This document shows positions 51,207-58,774 of a stretch of DNA of 64,000 nucleotides, one piece after another. The notes under the pieces are model-generated. The model saw only the letters and a program-made list of their open reading frames with translations, had not been told where the DNA came from and did not search any database. The first letter of the stretch is position 1. Every line of letters starts with the position of its first letter. Source of the DNA: Pseudomonas sp. VD-NE ins (lineage in GTDB: Bacteria > Pseudomonadota > Gammaproteobacteria > Pseudomonadales > Pseudomonadaceae); the NCBI RefSeq assembly GCF_031882575.1, contig NZ_CP134772.1, positions 4,111,001 to 4,175,000 on the forward strand, given 5' to 3'. A program made the position numbers and the translations under genes.

Positions 51207-52670
51207 ATGGAATTCACGATTCAACACTTTATTGCGCTTGCGCCACTGTTGATCACCAGCCTCACCATTATCGTGGTGATGCTGGCAATCGCCTGGCGCC
51301 GCAACCACTCGCAGACCTTCCTGATCTCGGTCGCCGGTCTGAACCTGGCCTTGCTGTCGATCCTGCCAGCCCTGAAAGTCGCGCCTCTGGCCGTGACTCC
51401 ACTGCTGCAAATCGACACGTTCGCTTGCCTGTACATGGCGCTGATCCTCGTCGCCACACTCGCCTGCGTCACCCTCGCCCACGCCTACTTGGGTGATGGC
51501 GGTTCGGGCTACCCGGGCAACCGTGAAGAACTGTACTTGCTGATCCTGATGGCCGCCGCCGGTGGCCTGGTTCTGGTCAGCGCGCAGCACCTCGCCGGTT
51601 TGTTCATCGGCCTGGAACTGCTCTCGGTACCGGTTTACGGTCTGGTGGCTTACGCCTTCTTCAACAAGCGTTCGCTGGAAGCCGGCATCAAATACATGGT
51701 GCTGTCGGCCGCCGGTTCCGCGTTCCTGTTGTTCGGTATGGCGCTGCTGTACGCAGACTCGGGTTCGCTGAGCTTCGTTGGCATCGGTCAGGCCTTGGCT
51801 GCGACTGGTCTGCCTAGCTCGCTGGCACAACTGGGCCTGGGCATGATGCTGATCGGTCTGGCGTTCAAGCTGTCGCTGGTACCGTTCCACCTGTGGACGC
51901 CGGACGTTTACGAAGGTGCTCCGGCACCGGTGGCTGCGTTCCTCGCCACTGCGTCGAAGGTTGCGGTGTTTGCGGTGATGGTGCGTCTGTTCCAGATCTC
52001 CCCCGCCGCAAGCAGTGGCGTCCTGAGCGACGTGCTGACCGTCATCGCCATCGCCTCGATCCTGTTCGGTAACCTGCTGGCGCTGACCCAGAGCAACCTC
52101 AAGCGTCTGCTCGGTTACTCGTCCATCGCGCACTTCGGCTACCTGCTGATCGCGCTGGTGGCGAGCAAGGGGCTGGCGGTGGAAGCCATCGGCGTGTACC
52201 TGGTGACTTATGTGATCACCAGCCTCGGCGCCTTCGGCGTGATCACCCTGATGTCCTCGCCGTACAACGGCCGTGACGCGGATGCCCTGTACGAATACCG
52301 CGGCCTGTTCTGGCGCCGTCCATACCTGACCGCCGTGCTGACCGTGATGATGCTGTCGCTGGCCGGTATCCCGCTGACCGCAGGCTTCATCGGCAAGTTC
52401 TACATCATCGCTACCGGTGTCGAATCGCACCAATGGTGGCTGGTCGGCTCGCTGGTACTGGGCAGCGCCATCGGCGTCTTCTACTACCTGCGCGTGATGG
52501 TCACCCTGTACCTGATCGAGCCAAACCTGCGTCGCCACGACGCCCAGCTGCACTGGGAACAGAAGGCAGGCGGCGTGATGCTGCTGGCCATCGCCCTCGT
52601 CGCATTCTTCCTGGGCGTGTACCCGCAGCCATTGCTGACTCTGGTTCAGCAGGCGGGTCTGGCGGGCTGA
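51207..52670 (+). CDS. nuoN: NADH-quinone oxidoreductase subunit N
   Basis: A 487-residue antiporter-like subunit, last gene of the operon. ATG at 51207 ([20 protein letters not shown]) follows nuoM by seven bases. [20 protein letters not shown] holds the conserved glutamate and [19 protein letters not shown] the second motif. Its last 28 codons and its terminator are duplicated, diverged, at 56216, after the reverse transcriptase gene. Confidence 0.97.
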
Positions 52671-52691
52671 TTGCTTGGCTGGCTAGAAATG

Positions 52692-52718
52692 AAAACGGCA
52701 CCTTCGAGTGCCGTTTTT
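52692..52718 (+). terminator. Intrinsic terminator of the nuo operon
   Basis: AAAACGGCAC-CTTCGA-GTGCCGTTTT, then TGTTTTTG. Diverged copies occur at 56322 and 56708. Confidence 0.92.
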
Positions 52719-52771
52719 GTTTTTGTGGGATTTAACATCAAAAGATCGCAGCCTGCGGCAGCTCCTACATT

Positions 52772-53154
52772 GGGATGGTGTGATCTCTGTAGAAGCTTTC
52801 GATGCTGCGATATTTTGCCCGTCAACAACCTCGCCTTTTAGAAGGTTTACTGCAAGGCGGTGGATGACACACATCTAAAATAAATATAGAAGTTCGCATG
52901 CTCGCGATGATATCGGCGTGGTCTCAACATTAACTACCTAGTCCCCTTAAGAGCAGACTCACATCTATAAGCGAATCACCCCACCTACTTTTTAACCGAA
53001 AAATCAGACAACAATAAGAAATTCGCTGCCTATCGAGTGCTTTTAAAAACAGCTCTACGTATAGTGATAAAAATTATCACAGTTTTCTGATACTTTCAGG
53101 ACAATACAAATGTGATATAAAAAACAAACCAAATATTTTCGGCACAGGTGTGAG
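52772..53154 (+). promoter_or_regulatory. AT-rich upstream region of the reverse transcriptase gene
   Basis: Nearly 400 bases without a gene, distinctly AT-rich after 52860. It contains a palindrome at 53064-53080 and a minus-10-like TATAAA at about 53116-53121. Other DRT groups encode a template RNA beside the RT; nothing here proves one, but this is where it could be. AGGTG six bases before ATG 53155 is the ribosome binding site. Confidence 0.45.
53064..53080. promoter_or_regulatory. Palindrome, candidate operator
   Basis: GTGATAA-AAA-TTATCAC, perfect 7-bp arms, 75 bases before the RT start and just upstream of the likely promoter. Could bind a regulator or form an RNA hairpin. Confidence 0.45.
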
Positions 53155-56100
53155 ATGAGTTTTAACCTAGATGACCTTGGACTGGCCTATCGAAAAGCCA
53201 AAGTAGATTTGTTTTACTCCTCAAACCCTGACCTCTTAGCAATAGCAGACTACGAGGAAAACCTTTCCGATAATTTGAATTTGCTGTCGGATTTACTGAA
53301 TGGAAAAAGCCAGAAATGGGTTGAACAGCCCGAGTTCATCGGTGGCTGGACTCTTGCGACAAAGTCAATTTCTTGGCCAGGCCGAAAGGAGTTTCAGGAA
53401 AAAAACGGAACAGGACTTAAATTCTCATCTCCGGCGCAGGATTGGGACTACACATACAAATTATTAACAGAAAACAACAAACGTTCAAAGCCTAACGCGG
53501 AGTTCCGCGTGATGGCCCAGTGCAGTCTTGATTTCCACGTACTCTCGGCTCTGTGGATGCTCAAAGTAGGCCACCAATATGATGCAAAGCTTACTAGGTG
53601 TGCCTTTGGCAATCGCCTACGCCGCACGCAAGATGGTAAACAGATCAATCCGCTATCCTTAGGCTCCTTCTCTCCCTATTTAAAGCCATTTCGAAGCTGG
53701 CGAGACAACGGTATATCGGCAATGCGCTCTGCATTGGACTCAAACAAAAAAATTGTAGCACTGACTGCCGACGTCAGCTCTTTTTATCATGAACTCCAAC
53801 CTGGATTCATGTTAGACAAATATTTCCTAGATGATGTGCTTTCACTCAACCTTACAGAAGACGAAAGCAAGCTTAATCAATTATTCATCAAAGCCTTAGA
53901 GGCTTGGGCCGCCTCAACCCCGCTAAAAAAGGGACTTCCAGTTGGATTGCCCGCATCTGCCGTCGTCGCTAACATGGCGTTGGTAGAACTGGATCGTATA
54001 ATTGAGCAACAAGTCGCCCCACTATATTACGGCCGCTATGTAGATGACATTTTACTTGTAATGGAAGATGGTGCACACTTTCATTCAGCGGATGAGCTAT
54101 GGAGTTGGCTATTCGAGCGCTCCGATGGAATGCTCGCATGGAATAATACTAGCAAGGATAAAAAAATCTGTTTTCAACCCAGATACTTTAAATCTGGTAA
54201 AAATAAGAGCAACATATTTTTCGCCAACTCAAAAAACAAAATTTTCATGTTGGCTGGTGAACCAGGAAGGACGCTAGTTAATACAATTGCCTATCAGATT
54301 TACGAGAGAGCGAGCGAATGGCGTGCAATGCCAAAGCTACCGAGCTCCGCTGAACACGTTGGAACAGATATGCTGGCTGCAACCCAAAATGACGGGGAAG
54401 CTGCTGACAATCTGCGTAAAGCGGATGCGTTAACAATGCGTCGTGCGGGATTCGCGATTAAATTGCGTGATTTTGAAGCTTATGAGCGTGACTTACGGCC
54501 TGACGCTTGGCAAGCACACCGAAGAGCCTTTCTACGCGCATTTACCCAACATGTTCTAGTTCTACCTGACTTCTTCGAACTGTCTATATATCTTCCCCGT
54601 GTAATACGATTAGCCACAGCATGCGAGGATTTTCGCGAACTACGAAAAATAATTAACGCCCTTGAAAAGCTGCGATCCGACGTTTGGTCTAATTGCAAAA
54701 CCAGCATTAAGGCATGGCCTGAAAATGAGCCATCAATGAATCACACTCTTGTTACCACACGATGGGATAGCCAACTATCTAAAACTGTTTTTGAAAGCAT
54801 AATAGCTGCATTCCCACCTAAACTTTCAAAAAGTGGGCGCCAAAGTTGGAAAGACAACATGATAGATTACCATCCGGGTAATACTGTTGGTCTGAACAGA
54901 CCTTGGTTGTCATCTGTCAAAGAATTCCAACGTGAGCAAGCTCGGCTTTTTTCATTCGACTTAGCTCATATGCCGTTCCGGTTTATTGGCTTATCAAAAG
55001 AAATGGTTGCACAAAGAGGCATACCCAACCGTCGCGTAGGCTCGATACAAGACACCTCGGCTGAATTACTTCCTTTCAGTGTATTACATGGCGCTTCGCT
55101 TCTTGCCAAACTGGTAAAACTCAATGGTTTACCTCGCGGCCTTCTCTTTGCAACACGACCTTTCAATCTTGCGGAATTGTGTGCAGTCAGCAACAGCGTT
55201 TATTTGAAGGATAGCCATGAAGACCTGCAGGACATTGTTCTAGCGCTTCGAGGTTTCAAGTTGAACGACAAAATGCCTTATATGAGTAAACGAGAAGTTC
55301 TACGAATTCCGGATGGCCATGCCCCTTCTAAATATCGTATTGCCGTGTCGAGCTGGCAGACCAGACTTGATAGCTGGGCAGCTTCGGTAACCAAGGAATC
55401 CGATCCTGACATACAGAGGTATTCTCGCCTAAATCGCTTGCTAGACAGCGTAATATCTAGCCCAGAAAAAAGTCGATATTTGATTCTCCCTGAACTAGCG
55501 CTACCACCTCTCTGGTTTTTTCGTATCGCAAGAAAGCTACAACTCTGTGGTATTTCTTTGATCTCTGGTGTTGAGTACCTGCACACTGAAGATTCAAAAG
55601 TACGCAACCAAGTCTGGGCCGCACTTTCTCATGACGGACTAGGCTTTCCTTCTACTATGATATATCGACAAGACAAGCAGCGCCCAGCACTGCATGAAGA
55701 GCGAGAACTTCATCGCCTAGCTGGTTTAAAAATGAAGCCGGAAAGAACTTGGAGCAAACCCCCAATCATTGAACACGGCGAGTTCCGATTTGCACTTTTA
55801 GTTTGTAGCGAGCTAACAAATATTAGTTACCGTAGCGCTTTAAGAGGAAAGGTCGACGCGTTATTCGTGCCAGAATGGAATCAGGACACCGAGACATTTA
55901 ATGCACTAGTCGAATCTGCTGCACTGGATATTCACGCCTACGTAATCCAGTGTAACGATCGGCAATATGGTGATAGCCGAATTCGAGCTCCTTTTAAAGA
56001 TAGTTGGAAACGTGATGTTCTTAAAGTTAAAGGAGGCATCACCGACTACTGCGTAATCGGCGAAATTGATATTAATTCACTTCGACAGTTCCAAAGCAAT

Positions 56101-56181
56101 CACCGCTCGCCGAGTGGACCATTCAAGCCGGTGCCGGACGGGTTCAAAATCTGCAAACATCGAAAAGTCTTGCCGAAGTGA
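53155..56181 (+). CDS. drt1: Reverse transcriptase-nitrilase fusion, DRT type 1 (UG1-like) defence protein
   Basis: A 1008-residue protein. The RT palm has motif A with Asp206 (LTADVSSFYHEL), motif B G260LPVGLPAS268, and motif C Tyr295-Val-Asp-Asp298 (GRYVDDILLVM), so the polymerase site looks intact. A helical middle (about 420-730) follows. The C-terminus (about 735-990) resembles a carbon-nitrogen hydrolase: Glu780 (LPELALP), Lys841 and Cys884 (LLVCSEL) are a plausible nitrilase triad. RT plus nitrilase in one chain is the architecture of DRT1, an antiphage system that works as a single gene. No maturase or retron features. Low GC against its neighbours indicates transfer. A different nitrilase-bearing UG group is the main alternative. 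Confidence 0.88.
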   Translation: MSFNLDDLGLAYRKAKVDLFYSSNPDLLAIADYEENLSDNLNLLSDLLNGKSQKWVEQPEFIGGWTLATKSISWPGRKEFQEKNGTGLKFSSPAQDWDYTYKLLTENNKRSKPNAEFRVMAQCSLDFHVLSALWMLKVGHQYDAKLTRCAFGNRLRRTQDGKQINPLSLGSFSPYLKPFRSWRDNGISAMRSALDSNKKIVALTADVSSFYHELQPGFMLDKYFLDDVLSLNLTEDESKLNQLFIKALEAWAASTPLKKGLPVGLPASAVVANMALVELDRIIEQQVAPLYYGRYVDDILLVMEDGAHFHSADELWSWLFERSDGMLAWNNTSKDKKICFQPRYFKSGKNKSNIFFANSKNKIFMLAGEPGRTLVNTIAYQIYERASEWRAMPKLPSSAEHVGTDMLAATQNDGEAADNLRKADALTMRRAGFAIKLRDFEAYERDLRPDAWQAHRRAFLRAFTQHVLVLPDFFELSIYLPRVIRLATACEDFRELRKIINALEKLRSDVWSNCKTSIKAWPENEPSMNHTLVTTRWDSQLSKTVFESIIAAFPPKLSKSGRQSWKDNMIDYHPGNTVGLNRPWLSSVKEFQREQARLFSFDLAHMPFRFIGLSKEMVAQRGIPNRRVGSIQDTSAELLPFSVLHGASLLAKLVKLNGLPRGLLFATRPFNLAELCAVSNSVYLKDSHEDLQDIVLALRGFKLNDKMPYMSKREVLRIPDGHAPSKYRIAVSSWQTRLDSWAASVTKESDPDIQRYSRLNRLLDSVISSPEKSRYLILPELALPPLWFFRIARKLQLCGISLISGVEYLHTEDSKVRNQVWAALSHDGLGFPSTMIYRQDKQRPALHEERELHRLAGLKMKPERTWSKPPIIEHGEFRFALLVCSELTNISYRSALRGKVDALFVPEWNQDTETFNALVESAALDIHAYVIQCNDRQYGDSRIRAPFKDSWKRDVLKVKGGITDYCVIGEIDINSLRQFQSNHRSPSGPFKPVPDGFKICKHRKVLPK

Positions 56182-56215
56182 GGGCCGAGTGAAAGATCTT
56201 GGCCGTTTCCATCAG

Positions 56216-56362
56216 GCCATTGCCCTGGCTGCGTTTTTCGTGAGTGCGTGCGCACAGCCATTGTTGCTCCTGATTCAGCAGGCGGGTCTGGCGGGCCGAT
56301 AGCTTGGCTGGCTACAAACGGAAACGGCACCTTCGGGTGCCGTGTTTGTTTTTGTGAGATTT
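56216..56362 (+). repeat. Duplicated nuoN 3' end with terminator (copy B)
   Basis: Gapless 147-base match to 52587-52733. Mismatches are about 18 of 66 in the first part and 8 of 81 in the second. It still encodes the nuoN tail in frame (AIALAAFFVSACAQPLLLLI, QQAGLAGR, stop TAG), compared with [27 protein letters not shown], stop TGA in nuoN. The hairpin AAACGGCAC-CTTCGG-GTGCCGTGT at 56322-56348 is the copied terminator and may serve the RT gene. Reads as an attachment-site-like duplication. Confidence 0.85.
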
Positions 56363-56696
56363 GTTACCAATGCTATGCCCTTCCTACTGAAATCCCCGAA
56401 ATCTCGCACCCTACTGTTGGGTTCCTCCTACAGCCAGAATTTGGCTTTTTGATTATCTTGTTCGACGTAAAAGACATCGATCCGATTCGAGTCCGCCCTC
56501 AGGAACGAGAAAATACAACTCCATCGGAAATCAGAAATGAAAAACACAAATGGCCAATCCAACCCAGAGGACGCGACCAGACCGACACCTCCCCATAGAC
56601 CTTCTGTGCCGGTTGTACGTCGCGTCGTGAACGAGAAAGTCATTAACCGCAAAGAAATAGCGCTGGATCGCAAGTGACGTAGAAGCGCAAAAGTCT
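56363..56696. other. Second cargo segment between terminator copies B and C
   Basis: About 330 bases bounded by two copies of the nuo terminator. The only coding candidate is the small frame at 56537-56677. The rest has no recognisable gene, RNA or repeat and may be the remnant of an earlier insertion. Confidence 0.4.
56537..56677 (+). CDS. Short hypothetical protein
   Basis: A 46-residue frame, MKNTNGQSNPEDATRPTPPH then RPSVPVVRRVVNEKVINRKE, Pro-rich first half and basic second half. CGGAA lies about nine bases upstream. No family recognised. It could be a small real gene or the leftover of a larger one in the cargo segment. Confidence 0.3.
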   Translation: MKNTNGQSNPEDATRPTPPHRPSVPVVRRVVNEKVINRKEIALDRK

Positions 56697-56860
56697 ATTA
56701 GCTATGGAAAAACGGCACCTTCGAATGCCATTTTTGTTTTGTAGAGTTACCGTCAAAAGATCACAGCCTTTAGAGATACCGAAGTCCGAGGTCTTTTGAT
56801 CTCTACGCCCTCCCCCTTTTAGGAATTTGCCTGCAAACCCGTGAGCAATGGCTGACATTA
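56697..56860 (+). repeat. Third, partial copy of the nuo terminator region (copy C)
   Basis: AAACGGCACCTTCGAATGCC, then ATTTTTGTTTTGTAGAG and GTCAAAAGATCACAGCC, matches in order the nuo terminator and the bases that follow it at 52690-52755. Further weak similarity (CCTTTTAG...CTGCAA) follows to about 56840 and matches 52835-52856. The nuoN coding part is absent from this copy. Confidence 0.7.
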
Positions 56861-56920
56861 CGTAGAAGACATTTGTCGTTAAATTTTGGGAATCACCTAT
56901 CAAGTGGAGATCCACGAACC

Positions 56921-57106
56921 ATGAAGCGGGATATTTATTCAGAATTGATGGATGGCCTTGATGCGTTAAGCGAAGAACGCAAAGGCAAAATCACCTTGAA
57001 GAAGTTCCGTGTAAAACGGATCGGCGCCATGAAGGGCAAACTCACACTTCCCGAAGAATTTGATGCATCTCTATCACATAGTTTGCTGGATACCGTCGAA
57101 CGATAA
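56921..57106 (+). pseudogene. Chimeric antitoxin remnant (NadS/HigA-like start, Phd-like end)
   Basis: A 61-residue frame. Residues 1-28 (MKRDIYSELMDGLDALSEER and KGKITLKK) resemble the start of NadS/HigA-type helix-turn-helix antitoxins, which normally continue for about 70 more residues. Residues 30-61 (RVKRIGAMKGKLTLPEEFDA then SLSHSLLDTVER) resemble the C-terminal toxin-binding tail of Phd/YefM antitoxins. No toxin gene is adjacent. GGAG lies 11 bases upstream of the ATG. Both assignments are by eye; a short intact unknown protein is the alternative. Confidence 0.45.
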
Positions 57107-57151
57107 AAAGCCACACCTGCACTCATGCGACCTATTAGACTCACTCAGGCC

Positions 57152-57264
57152 ACTGTGGGAGCGAGCCTGCTCCGGGCGGCGTTTCGTTCCGACGAAGGCG
57201 TCGGCACATCCACCCTCTTCAGTGCCTGACACTCCGCTTTCGCGAGCAAGCTCGCTCCCACAGG
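57152..57264. repeat. REP palindrome pair
   Basis: TGTGGGAGCGAGCCTGCTCC and GAGCAAGCTCGCTCCCACAG, left arm with the CGGGCGGCG variant also seen at 34307. Confidence 0.85.
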
Positions 57265-57448
57265 TTTGTGTGGCGTTCACTCAATCCATATAACCACATG
57301 ACGAAATTGTAATTCCCTCATCACCTCGGCGTTATCCGCAGCTTGCAACGATGTGACCCGGCGACCAATGCCGGCGGGCCCTGCCCCGCCGAACAATAAA
57401 ACCCACGCCGAAGCACGTTCCCGTTCTGCCGAACCCAAGGAGTGTTTG

Positions 57449-58774
57449 ATGGTTAACAATTCAAAAATGTCGCTGGCCGCTTTAGCGGTGGTGGTCGGCG
57501 CCGCGCCGTCCATGGTGTTTGCAGAAGACAAGCCCGAGGGCTTTGTCGAAGGCAGCAGCCTTACGGTGCTCAACCGTAACTTCTATTTCAATCGTGATCA
57601 TCGCGACGGCCAGTCCAGCCCGACCGGCAACGGTTATTCCGAAGCCTGGGCGCATGCCGTGATCAGCAAGTTCGAATCCGGTTTCACCCAGGGCACCGTT
57701 GGCGTCGGGGTTGATGCGTTTGCGATGATTGGGTTGAAGCTCGACACCGGTGACGGCCGTAATGGCGGGCGCAGTTCGTTTGATGTGTTGCCGGTTAACA
57801 GTGATGGCGAGGCGCGAGACGAATACACCAAGGTCGGTGGCGCTGCGAAAATTCGGGCGTTCGATACGGTGGTCAAGGTTGGCGATGTGTTCCCGGCCAA
57901 TCCAGTGGTCGCGGCGGGTGACTCGCGCTTGCTGCCGGAAAGCTTTCGAGGCGTGACGGCGACCAACACCAGTATTGAAGGTCTGTCGGTGCAGGGCGGT
58001 CGGTTGCACGCGATGAGCCAACCGGTGTCCAGCGACATGCGCGAGAACTTCGCGACCTTCTACGCAGGCCCAGTCAATTCGCCGTGGATCGCGTATGGCG
58101 GCGGCGATTATGCGCTGAACAAGAATCTCAGTTTCAGCCTGTACTCCAGTCGCCTGAAGGATGCGTGGAATCAGTATTACGCCGGTGCTGCCTGGACGTA
58201 TCCGCTGTCGGACGACCTGTCACTGTTCGGTGGCCTGAACTATTACAAGGCCGTCGATGAAGGCAAACAACTGCTCGGCGAATTCGACAACAACATCTGG
58301 AGCGGCCGCGTCGGCGTGAAGCTCGGCGCCCACTCGGTCGCCCTCTCCCACCAGCGCAACAACGGTAACGACGACTTCGATTACCTGCGCCAGTCCGACT
58401 CGATCTTCCTCGACAACTCGATCCAGTACAGCGATTTCAACTCGCCGAAAGAACGTTCGTGGATGGTGCGTTATGACCTCGACATGAGCACTTACGGCGT
58501 GCCGGGCTTGTCGTTCATGACCCGTTACGCGCGCGGCACCGACGCTGATTATTCCAATGCCAACGCGGTGTACATGCGCCGCGATGCCGAGGGCAATCCG
58601 CTGACCGATCAGAAACGTTGGGAGCGCGATATCGAAGTCAAATACGTGGTGCAGAGCGGCTCGATGAAAGACCTGTCGCTACGTTTGCGCCAAGCCACAA
58701 CCCGCGCCACGGCGTTCGAGTCGGATCTGGATGAAGTGCGGGTGATTGTCGAGTATCCGCTGGCGATTCTTTGA
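57449..58774 (+). CDS. OprD family outer-membrane porin
   Basis: A 441-residue 18-strand barrel porin. The signal peptide runs to MVFA (MVNNSKMSLAALAVVVGAAP start) and the mature part opens with GFVEGSSLTVLNRNFYFNRD, the usual OprD start. SPWIAYGGGDYALNKNLSFS and the C-terminal VIVEYPLAIL are typical strands. AAGGAG six bases upstream supports ATG 57449. Substrate (amino acid, dipeptide or aromatic acid) cannot be told. About 180 upstream bases after the REP hold the promoter; no catabolic operon is adjacent. Confidence 0.92.
   Translation: MVNNSKMSLAALAVVVGAAPSMVFAEDKPEGFVEGSSLTVLNRNFYFNRDHRDGQSSPTGNGYSEAWAHAVISKFESGFTQGTVGVGVDAFAMIGLKLDTGDGRNGGRSSFDVLPVNSDGEARDEYTKVGGAAKIRAFDTVVKVGDVFPANPVVAAGDSRLLPESFRGVTATNTSIEGLSVQGGRLHAMSQPVSSDMRENFATFYAGPVNSPWIAYGGGDYALNKNLSFSLYSSRLKDAWNQYYAGAAWTYPLSDDLSLFGGLNYYKAVDEGKQLLGEFDNNIWSGRVGVKLGAHSVALSHQRNNGNDDFDYLRQSDSIFLDNSIQYSDFNSPKERSWMVRYDLDMSTYGVPGLSFMTRYARGTDADYSNANAVYMRRDAEGNPLTDQKRWERDIEVKYVVQSGSMKDLSLRLRQATTRATAFESDLDEVRVIVEYPLAIL

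Follow-up and report, generated by a model that had tools for sequence, protein, structure and literature searches.

In Pseudomonas, the 3′ side of the core gene nuoN is supported as a genus-wide hotspot with variable cargo, the inner boundary of which lies at the end of the nuoN terminator. In the window analysed here (64,000 nucleotides of the Pseudomonas sp. VD-NE ins chromosome, NZ_CP134772.1), a defence-associated reverse transcriptase (DRT) of the UG5-nitrilase type lies between two copies of the nuoN end, and a comparison with close relatives supports growth of the interval in steps, the oldest material being found by an OprD-family porin and the reverse-transcriptase unit adjoining nuoN. 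Integrase-less recombination at nuoN/terminator homology, with the newest cargo placed nearest to nuoN, is the explanation that we consider probable.

Repeated sequences behind nuoN

The features of the interval are collected in Table 1. Copies A and B align without a gap, with 122 of 148 positions (82 %) identical, which agrees with the divergence of about 18 per cent given in the first-pass annotation, while base-shuffled versions of the downstream 8 kb reached at most 64 identical positions (200 shuffles). The third terminator copy mentioned there also exists, although at 56709-56740 (94 % of 32 nt) and not at about 56697. The similarity between A and C extends beyond the terminator (63 bp at 85.7 %), so the post-terminator sequence is duplicated at A and C as well. 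Moreover, D′ shares homology both with the flank of C and with the sequence behind nuoN in the related loci L114 and L119, indicating that the duplication exceeds the gene end. When a 147-bp query was compared with the 6.7-Mb genome itself, A, B and C were the only three matches (E 0.001), and the hairpin core was found in five copies with at most one mismatch. The nuoN-end repeats are thus real. No Rfam family was matched at gathering thresholds between 51 and 59 kb of the window.

Table 1. Coordinates of nuoN, the repeats, the insert and the porin in the window
Feature	Position	Strand	Basis
nuoN, anchor core gene, 488 aa	51204..52670	+	Pfam Proton_antipo_M, E 1e-78
Copy A: last nuoN codons, stop and terminator	52586..52733	+	Repeat comparison
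D′: sequence following terminator A	52734..52862		Homology in L114 and L119; weaker to copy C flank
UG5-nitrilase type defence-associated reverse transcriptase, 1008 aa	53155..56181	+	PADLOC profile
Short GTG ORF, 37 residues, in the nuoN frame through copy B	56189..56302	+	Read by eye
Copy B: degenerate nuoN end and terminator	56215..56362	+	Repeat comparison
Terminator B and B-C segment	56297..56708		Behind nuoN in L113; partly in L116 and L117
Copy C: terminator and following sequence	56709..56770		Directly behind nuoN in L114
Antitoxin remnant, 61 aa	56921..57106	+	VapB model and relatives' antitoxins
OprD-family porin, right-hand border in the clade	57449..58774	+	Pfam OprD, E 4e-152 (ORF 57353-58774)

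Copy A differs from the clade consensus at three private sites in 82 coding nt, all of them third positions, and the nuoN ends of the nearest relatives likewise differ from A in third positions only (0/0/3 to 0/0/5 by codon position). By comparison, copy B carries 15 changes in 82 nt relative to the clade consensus, which are spread over the codon positions as 6/4/5 (6/4/5 to 6/4/7 against the nearest relatives), and the nuoN stop TGA reads CGA in B, with an in-frame TAG next. Owing to these changes at all codon positions and to the altered stop, B reads as a decayed clade-type nuoN end. Since the clade state is retained in B wherever A has one of its three private changes, B derives from such an end and not from today's A. 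These observations speak against the earlier suggestion that the copies come from different lineages.

The 15 private changes of B all lie within 56221-56273, and the next 23 nt are unchanged. The change expected from adjacent sequence is 8.2 % pairwise or about 4.1 % per branch, which 15 of 82 exceeds (P 0.003 and 1e-6, respectively), as measured on a single 82-nt stretch and against one close relative. The left and right parts of B contrast significantly when compared with L113 (P 0.008), whereas with L116 (P 0.13) or L117 (P 0.68) the difference does not reach significance. Our inference is that decay of the left part of B preceded its arrival with the reverse-transcriptase unit.

The insert and the interval up to the porin

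The inserted unit spans 3.6 kb, and the reverse transcriptase is its sole long ORF. The gene is A+T-rich, with a G+C content of 40-48 % vs 61-64 % in nuoN. The encoded protein matches the PADLOC RT_UG5-nitrilase profile (PDLC03780) over its full length (residues 2-1008, 1034.6 bits), whereas the Drt1a model aligns with residues 774-994 only (78 bits). The first-pass annotation was therefore right to place a reverse transcriptase between A and B, but with the Drt1a match confined to the C-terminal part its label 'DRT1' is loose, and judged by its profile matches the gene is a UG5-nitrilase DRT, not DRT1 proper. DRT1 is described as a nitrilase-bearing class 3 DRT that depends on both its reverse transcriptase and its nitrilase activity for abortive infection (PMC13275509). 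As in the DRT1 described there, the window protein is a single large polypeptide with a reverse transcriptase and a C-terminal nitrilase region, from which it is set apart by the profile matches given above. The abortive-infection function of DRT1 may extend to the window protein.

Pfam was searched with the large ORF and with the small ORFs at 56066-56302 and 56428-56673. The ORF list of the insert contained no recognisable integrase gene and no tRNA was found in the 64-kb window, so the analogy to islands that use tRNA 3′ ends, which had been drawn from the repeats, is not borne out. The short GTG ORF through copy B is probably fortuitous; the changes in copy B give it a lipobox-like VSAC motif. 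Additionally, a 27-bp match of 56202-56228 recurs in many genomes. It was considered as a conserved gene start and rejected, as both groups of matches were judged, from three hits of each, to be due to chance: in L199, L201 and L204 the match is antisense within a long ORF (transporter-permease-like by eye), and in L200, L202 and L203 it lies inside small ORFs.

The antitoxin-like debris reported behind copy C was confirmed. The ORF gives a weak match to the VapB antitoxin model (E 2e-4, short of the model cut-off) and aligns to residues 1-31 of one and residues 103-139 (of 143) of another antitoxin present at this spot in relatives; no toxin gene was recognised beside it. Between this remnant and the porin lies an inverted repeat (57153-57263) with arms of 20 nt that are 95 % complementary, which resembles Pseudomonas REP-type elements.

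Relatives of the reverse transcriptase were detected in eight other genomes of the genus (E 1e-30 or better). nuoN was absent from the 12-15 kb around each of them, and hence no donor with the unit at nuoN was found among them. These relatives match the window in the coding sequence and, in L188, in one short repeat-like stretch upstream, and no unit ends are shared between them and the window. The unit had no match in 50,697 phage records, and three of 72,556 plasmid records matched it at only 68 %, within the coding part. G314 and G014 (L189 and L190) yielded a distant ORF of 1099 aa, whose two ends are related to the UG5 reverse transcriptase, and a fragment of such an ORF with 195 aa; these may represent a divergent form and a broken copy.

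Alleles of close relatives and the order of gain

The window is collinear from 56215 to 57567 with L113, from the nuoN end of that locus to its porin, at 88.7 %. L113 thus holds the stretch from B to the porin directly behind nuoN, and A together with the reverse-transcriptase unit is extra in the window. In L114, the nuoN terminator runs straight into the flank of C without the B-C segment, indicating that this segment is also extra and was gained earlier. The B-C segment is present in L113 (93.6 %) and partially in L116 and L117 (77 %, about 69 % covered), and from terminator B onward the divergence from L113 amounts to only 5.5 % (219 bp). None of the seven close relatives, L113-L119, contains the insert or a second coding end. 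The alleles of L113 and L114 thereby bear out the stepwise cargo gain proposed from the window sequence. Furthermore, the closest relative changes from block to block, being L115 for nuoN (97.8 %), L113 for the B-C segment and L119 for the stretch immediately ahead of the porin (96.8 %, with 73 % of the block covered), as recombination predicts.

The order of co-occurring modules was also compared. Where they occur together, a separate TA1 module or remnant is the outer one relative to the acetyltransferase (3/3), c58 (2/2), c47/48 (2/2), a separate Phd-PIN pair (3/3) and a DRT (1/1), in a tally that was recounted by eye and in which related loci share some cases. The automatic proximal/distal counter met ties and chimeric antitoxin ORFs (L113, L117, L131, L135, L140 and the window).

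The nuoN 3′ side across the genus

The window and 83 other loci, oriented by NuoN, were compared. The sample comprised 60 loci near the top of a match list (222 matching genomes) and 23 of the 80 loci of a second set, G136 and G020 having been skipped as lying near contig ends; drawn largely from the top of that list, it leans to relatives of the window, and it includes L035, apparently the same contig as L141. Distant porins were possibly missed in the orientation of the loci, and the positions near nuoN agree with the clustering of ORFs. A border neighbour gene, chosen by us, was present in 72 of the 83 other loci. In 18 of these 72, no ORF of at least 80 aa precedes the border, and the remaining ones hold varied ORFs, so that different genes occupy the same position, as befits a hotspot; the ORF calls are mechanical, and some small ones are surely not genes. 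Neither an invariant interval nor a copy B without insert, which the first-pass annotation had named as signs of a local duplication, was found in the sampled loci.

In the pairwise comparison of 83 loci (L035 left out, the window included), 746 pairs displayed a left block of at least 85 % identity and a displaced right block, and in 643 of them the left block ended 50-80 nt after nuoN. As similarity may fade behind a terminator anyway, only clean pairs were then considered, defined by a short allele with a residue of at most 60 nt. The left breakpoint was located 45-90 nt after nuoN, at the end of the terminator, in 86 of 101 clean short/long pairs, which are not independent since they share loci (48 distinct loci), and in 56 of the 67 clean pairs with a right block of at least 500 nt. 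The loss of similarity behind the terminator is partly expected from relaxed constraint, for which the clean-pair test is the only control, and nuoN is the one gene end tested. The varied cargo and the position of the breakpoints uphold the earlier claim of a hotspot at the nuoN 3′ end. In a limited literature collection, no paper treating nuoN as an insertion spot was found, and broader searches returned general papers on hotspots.

Cargo in other genomes

The modules searched for, or their remnants, are present in 47 of the 83 loci, the commonest being a RelE/HTH-like pair (32), followed by a Phd-PIN pair (16) and an acetyltransferase (9), with others rarer. Scanning covered 135 of the 141 cargo ORFs, all from loci with a recognised border, the six ORFs of L035 being left out. 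PIN, Phd and acetyltransferase were the commonest Pfam families (seven each), and no integrase family was among the best 25 of the 38 Pfam families in these ORFs. At 1e-10, PADLOC matched one of the 135 ORFs, with a candidate model for a TAP-like hydrolase. With no firm defence system in the 135 ORFs, the spot does not have the character of a defence island, and the expectation that different defence genes would occupy the interval in different genomes is not supported, the recognisable cargo consisting mostly of toxin-antitoxin and acetyltransferase genes. Toxin-antitoxin pairs can act against phages.

Several less common genes were also observed at the spot. A nucleotidyltransferase that matches a PADLOC candidate model more weakly (E 2e-8) occurs in two genomes (L137:17992-18783 and L146:17992-18783), the copy in L137 showing weak similarity to the MntA antitoxin model. 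A two-gene module of 446 and 125 aa behind nuoN (L141:939-2650 and L132:17107-18818), for which the L141 pair gave no Pfam, NCBIfam or PADLOC match, could be a novel toxin-immunity-like pair. Finally, a protein of 285-288 aa with a membrane-bound look, judged by eye, is encoded in L117 (4432-5295) and L116 (922-1776), and its L117 copy matched no family.

Gene-end and terminator repeats at other loci

A nuoN-end match was obtained in 366 of 398 genomes, and two or more in 56, the window included, but a coding-end copy downstream of nuoN was found in the window alone (1/398). None of the other 55 genomes has an additional match a short way downstream of nuoN on that contig: the extra matches are short, far away or on other contigs, and in eight of the 55 they precede the nuoN end by about 1.47-1.54 kb, which in the window is the position of the nuoM end. 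Between 2 and 15 candidates were scored per genome and contig breaks are possible; with so few candidates, a more degenerate copy could be missed. A terminator copy followed by an outer flank that matches an empty allele occurs in 4 of 83 loci (the window, L125, L132 and L113), where the L113 case matches at 67 % only and is supported by L114. No terminator copy of this kind is found at the outer end of the cargo in the other 79, and many downstream terminator look-alikes seem, by eye, to belong to the next gene, which is convergent. Cargo with a gene-end direct repeat on either side was thus not found in independent genomes, and the idea that every insertion leaves a gene-end copy behind is not supported. 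Since the coding-end duplication was seen only once, its mechanism is not generalisable.

Possible mechanisms of cargo gain

The lack of a recognisable integrase gene in the unit and of a mobile form in the phage and plasmid records, the relatives of the gene that lie away from nuoN and the published hotspots devoid of mobility genes together favour homologous recombination. Incoming DNA that carries the same terminator, a portion of the nuoN end or both would recombine at the conserved stretch, fresh cargo would land right behind the terminator and push older cargo outward, and modules would subsequently decay or be lost. In the window, an old antitoxin remnant near the porin would have been followed by the B-C segment and then by the reverse-transcriptase unit next to nuoN, which may have brought with it a nuoN-end-like arm, the left part of copy B, in an already degenerate state. 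Such a mechanism would be an ordinary one, and the spot would represent a polar archive.

The 148-bp gene-end duplication that flanks the insert could also have arisen by site-specific integration of a circular element with the nuoN end in its attachment site and a recombinase supplied in trans. This model has a precedent in the e14 prophage of Escherichia coli K-12, which has its own putative integrase gene, intE, and lies in icd with a 165-bp duplication, the icd ends differing by 12 nt exchanges with two conservative residues (PMC11148124). As in that case, the insert in the window has an intact gene on one side and, on the other, a further copy of its 3′ end of comparable length. D′, adjoining copy A, could represent one arm of such an attachment site and the degenerate left part of B the other. 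Unlike e14, however, no integrase gene is seen in the window insert, and copy B is decayed with a changed stop. The only long ORF of the unit being the reverse transcriptase, the phage records being matchless, the plasmid matches being confined to coding sequence and the relatives of the gene sharing no ends, we regard this route as rather unlikely. An integrase-dependent genomic island of the tRNA or icd type does not fit either, as no integrase gene was seen in the insert.

An old, vertically inherited insertion, in which B decayed in place and the relatives lost the unit by recombination between A and B, would account for the many neutral-looking changes in B, and the identical 23-nt stretch shared by A and B (56274-56296 in B) would offer a possible recombination site. 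This scenario demands independent precise losses in all seven close relatives, and the low divergence from L113 from terminator B onward also argues against it, making it improbable. A scenario in which the nuoN end was first duplicated locally in tandem and the reverse transcriptase then inserted between the copies is suggested by the gapless alignment of A with a non-functional B but appears very improbable, given that a duplication without insert is absent from the sampled genomes, that D′ is duplicated at A and C and not at A and B, and that B was not copied from today's A.

Comparison with known hotspots

In published work, many hotspots proved to lack mobility genes and were connected with recombination at the core genes that flank them (Oliveira et al. 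2017, PMC5635113). The nuoN spot resembles the integrase-less hotspots described there in its core-gene borders, its fast turnover of cargo and the fact that no mobility gene is seen, and recombination of homologous flanks has been proposed for both. It differs from them in having, throughout the genus, the terminator of a single core gene as its inner border, in that its recognisable cargo is small and often consists of toxin-antitoxin genes, and in that some inserts are terminator-flanked. The P. aeruginosa hotspots cDHS1 and cDHS2 are likewise flanked by core genes, and cDHS1 is not tied to one group of mobile elements. They hold many defence systems, however (cDHS1 spanning 1-224 kb), in contrast to the single defence gene in the window and the absence of firm ones in the 135 ORFs elsewhere, and nuoN is not mentioned in the available text of that paper (PMC10250203).

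Conclusions

More speculatively, the nuoN terminator may serve as a genus-wide landing pad for integrase-less cassettes that consist of genes and a look-alike terminator. The resulting polar array, in which the distance from nuoN reflects age, would be reminiscent of an integron that uses general recombination instead of an integrase; we advance this generalisation only tentatively.

The nuoN 3′ side adds a well-bounded and testable site of integrase-less acquisition, complete with a stratigraphy, and because its inner junction is fixed, the footprint of recombination can be searched for directly. It also indicates that, where the end of a gene is duplicated next to a defence gene, an integrase-bearing mobile element is not necessarily involved.
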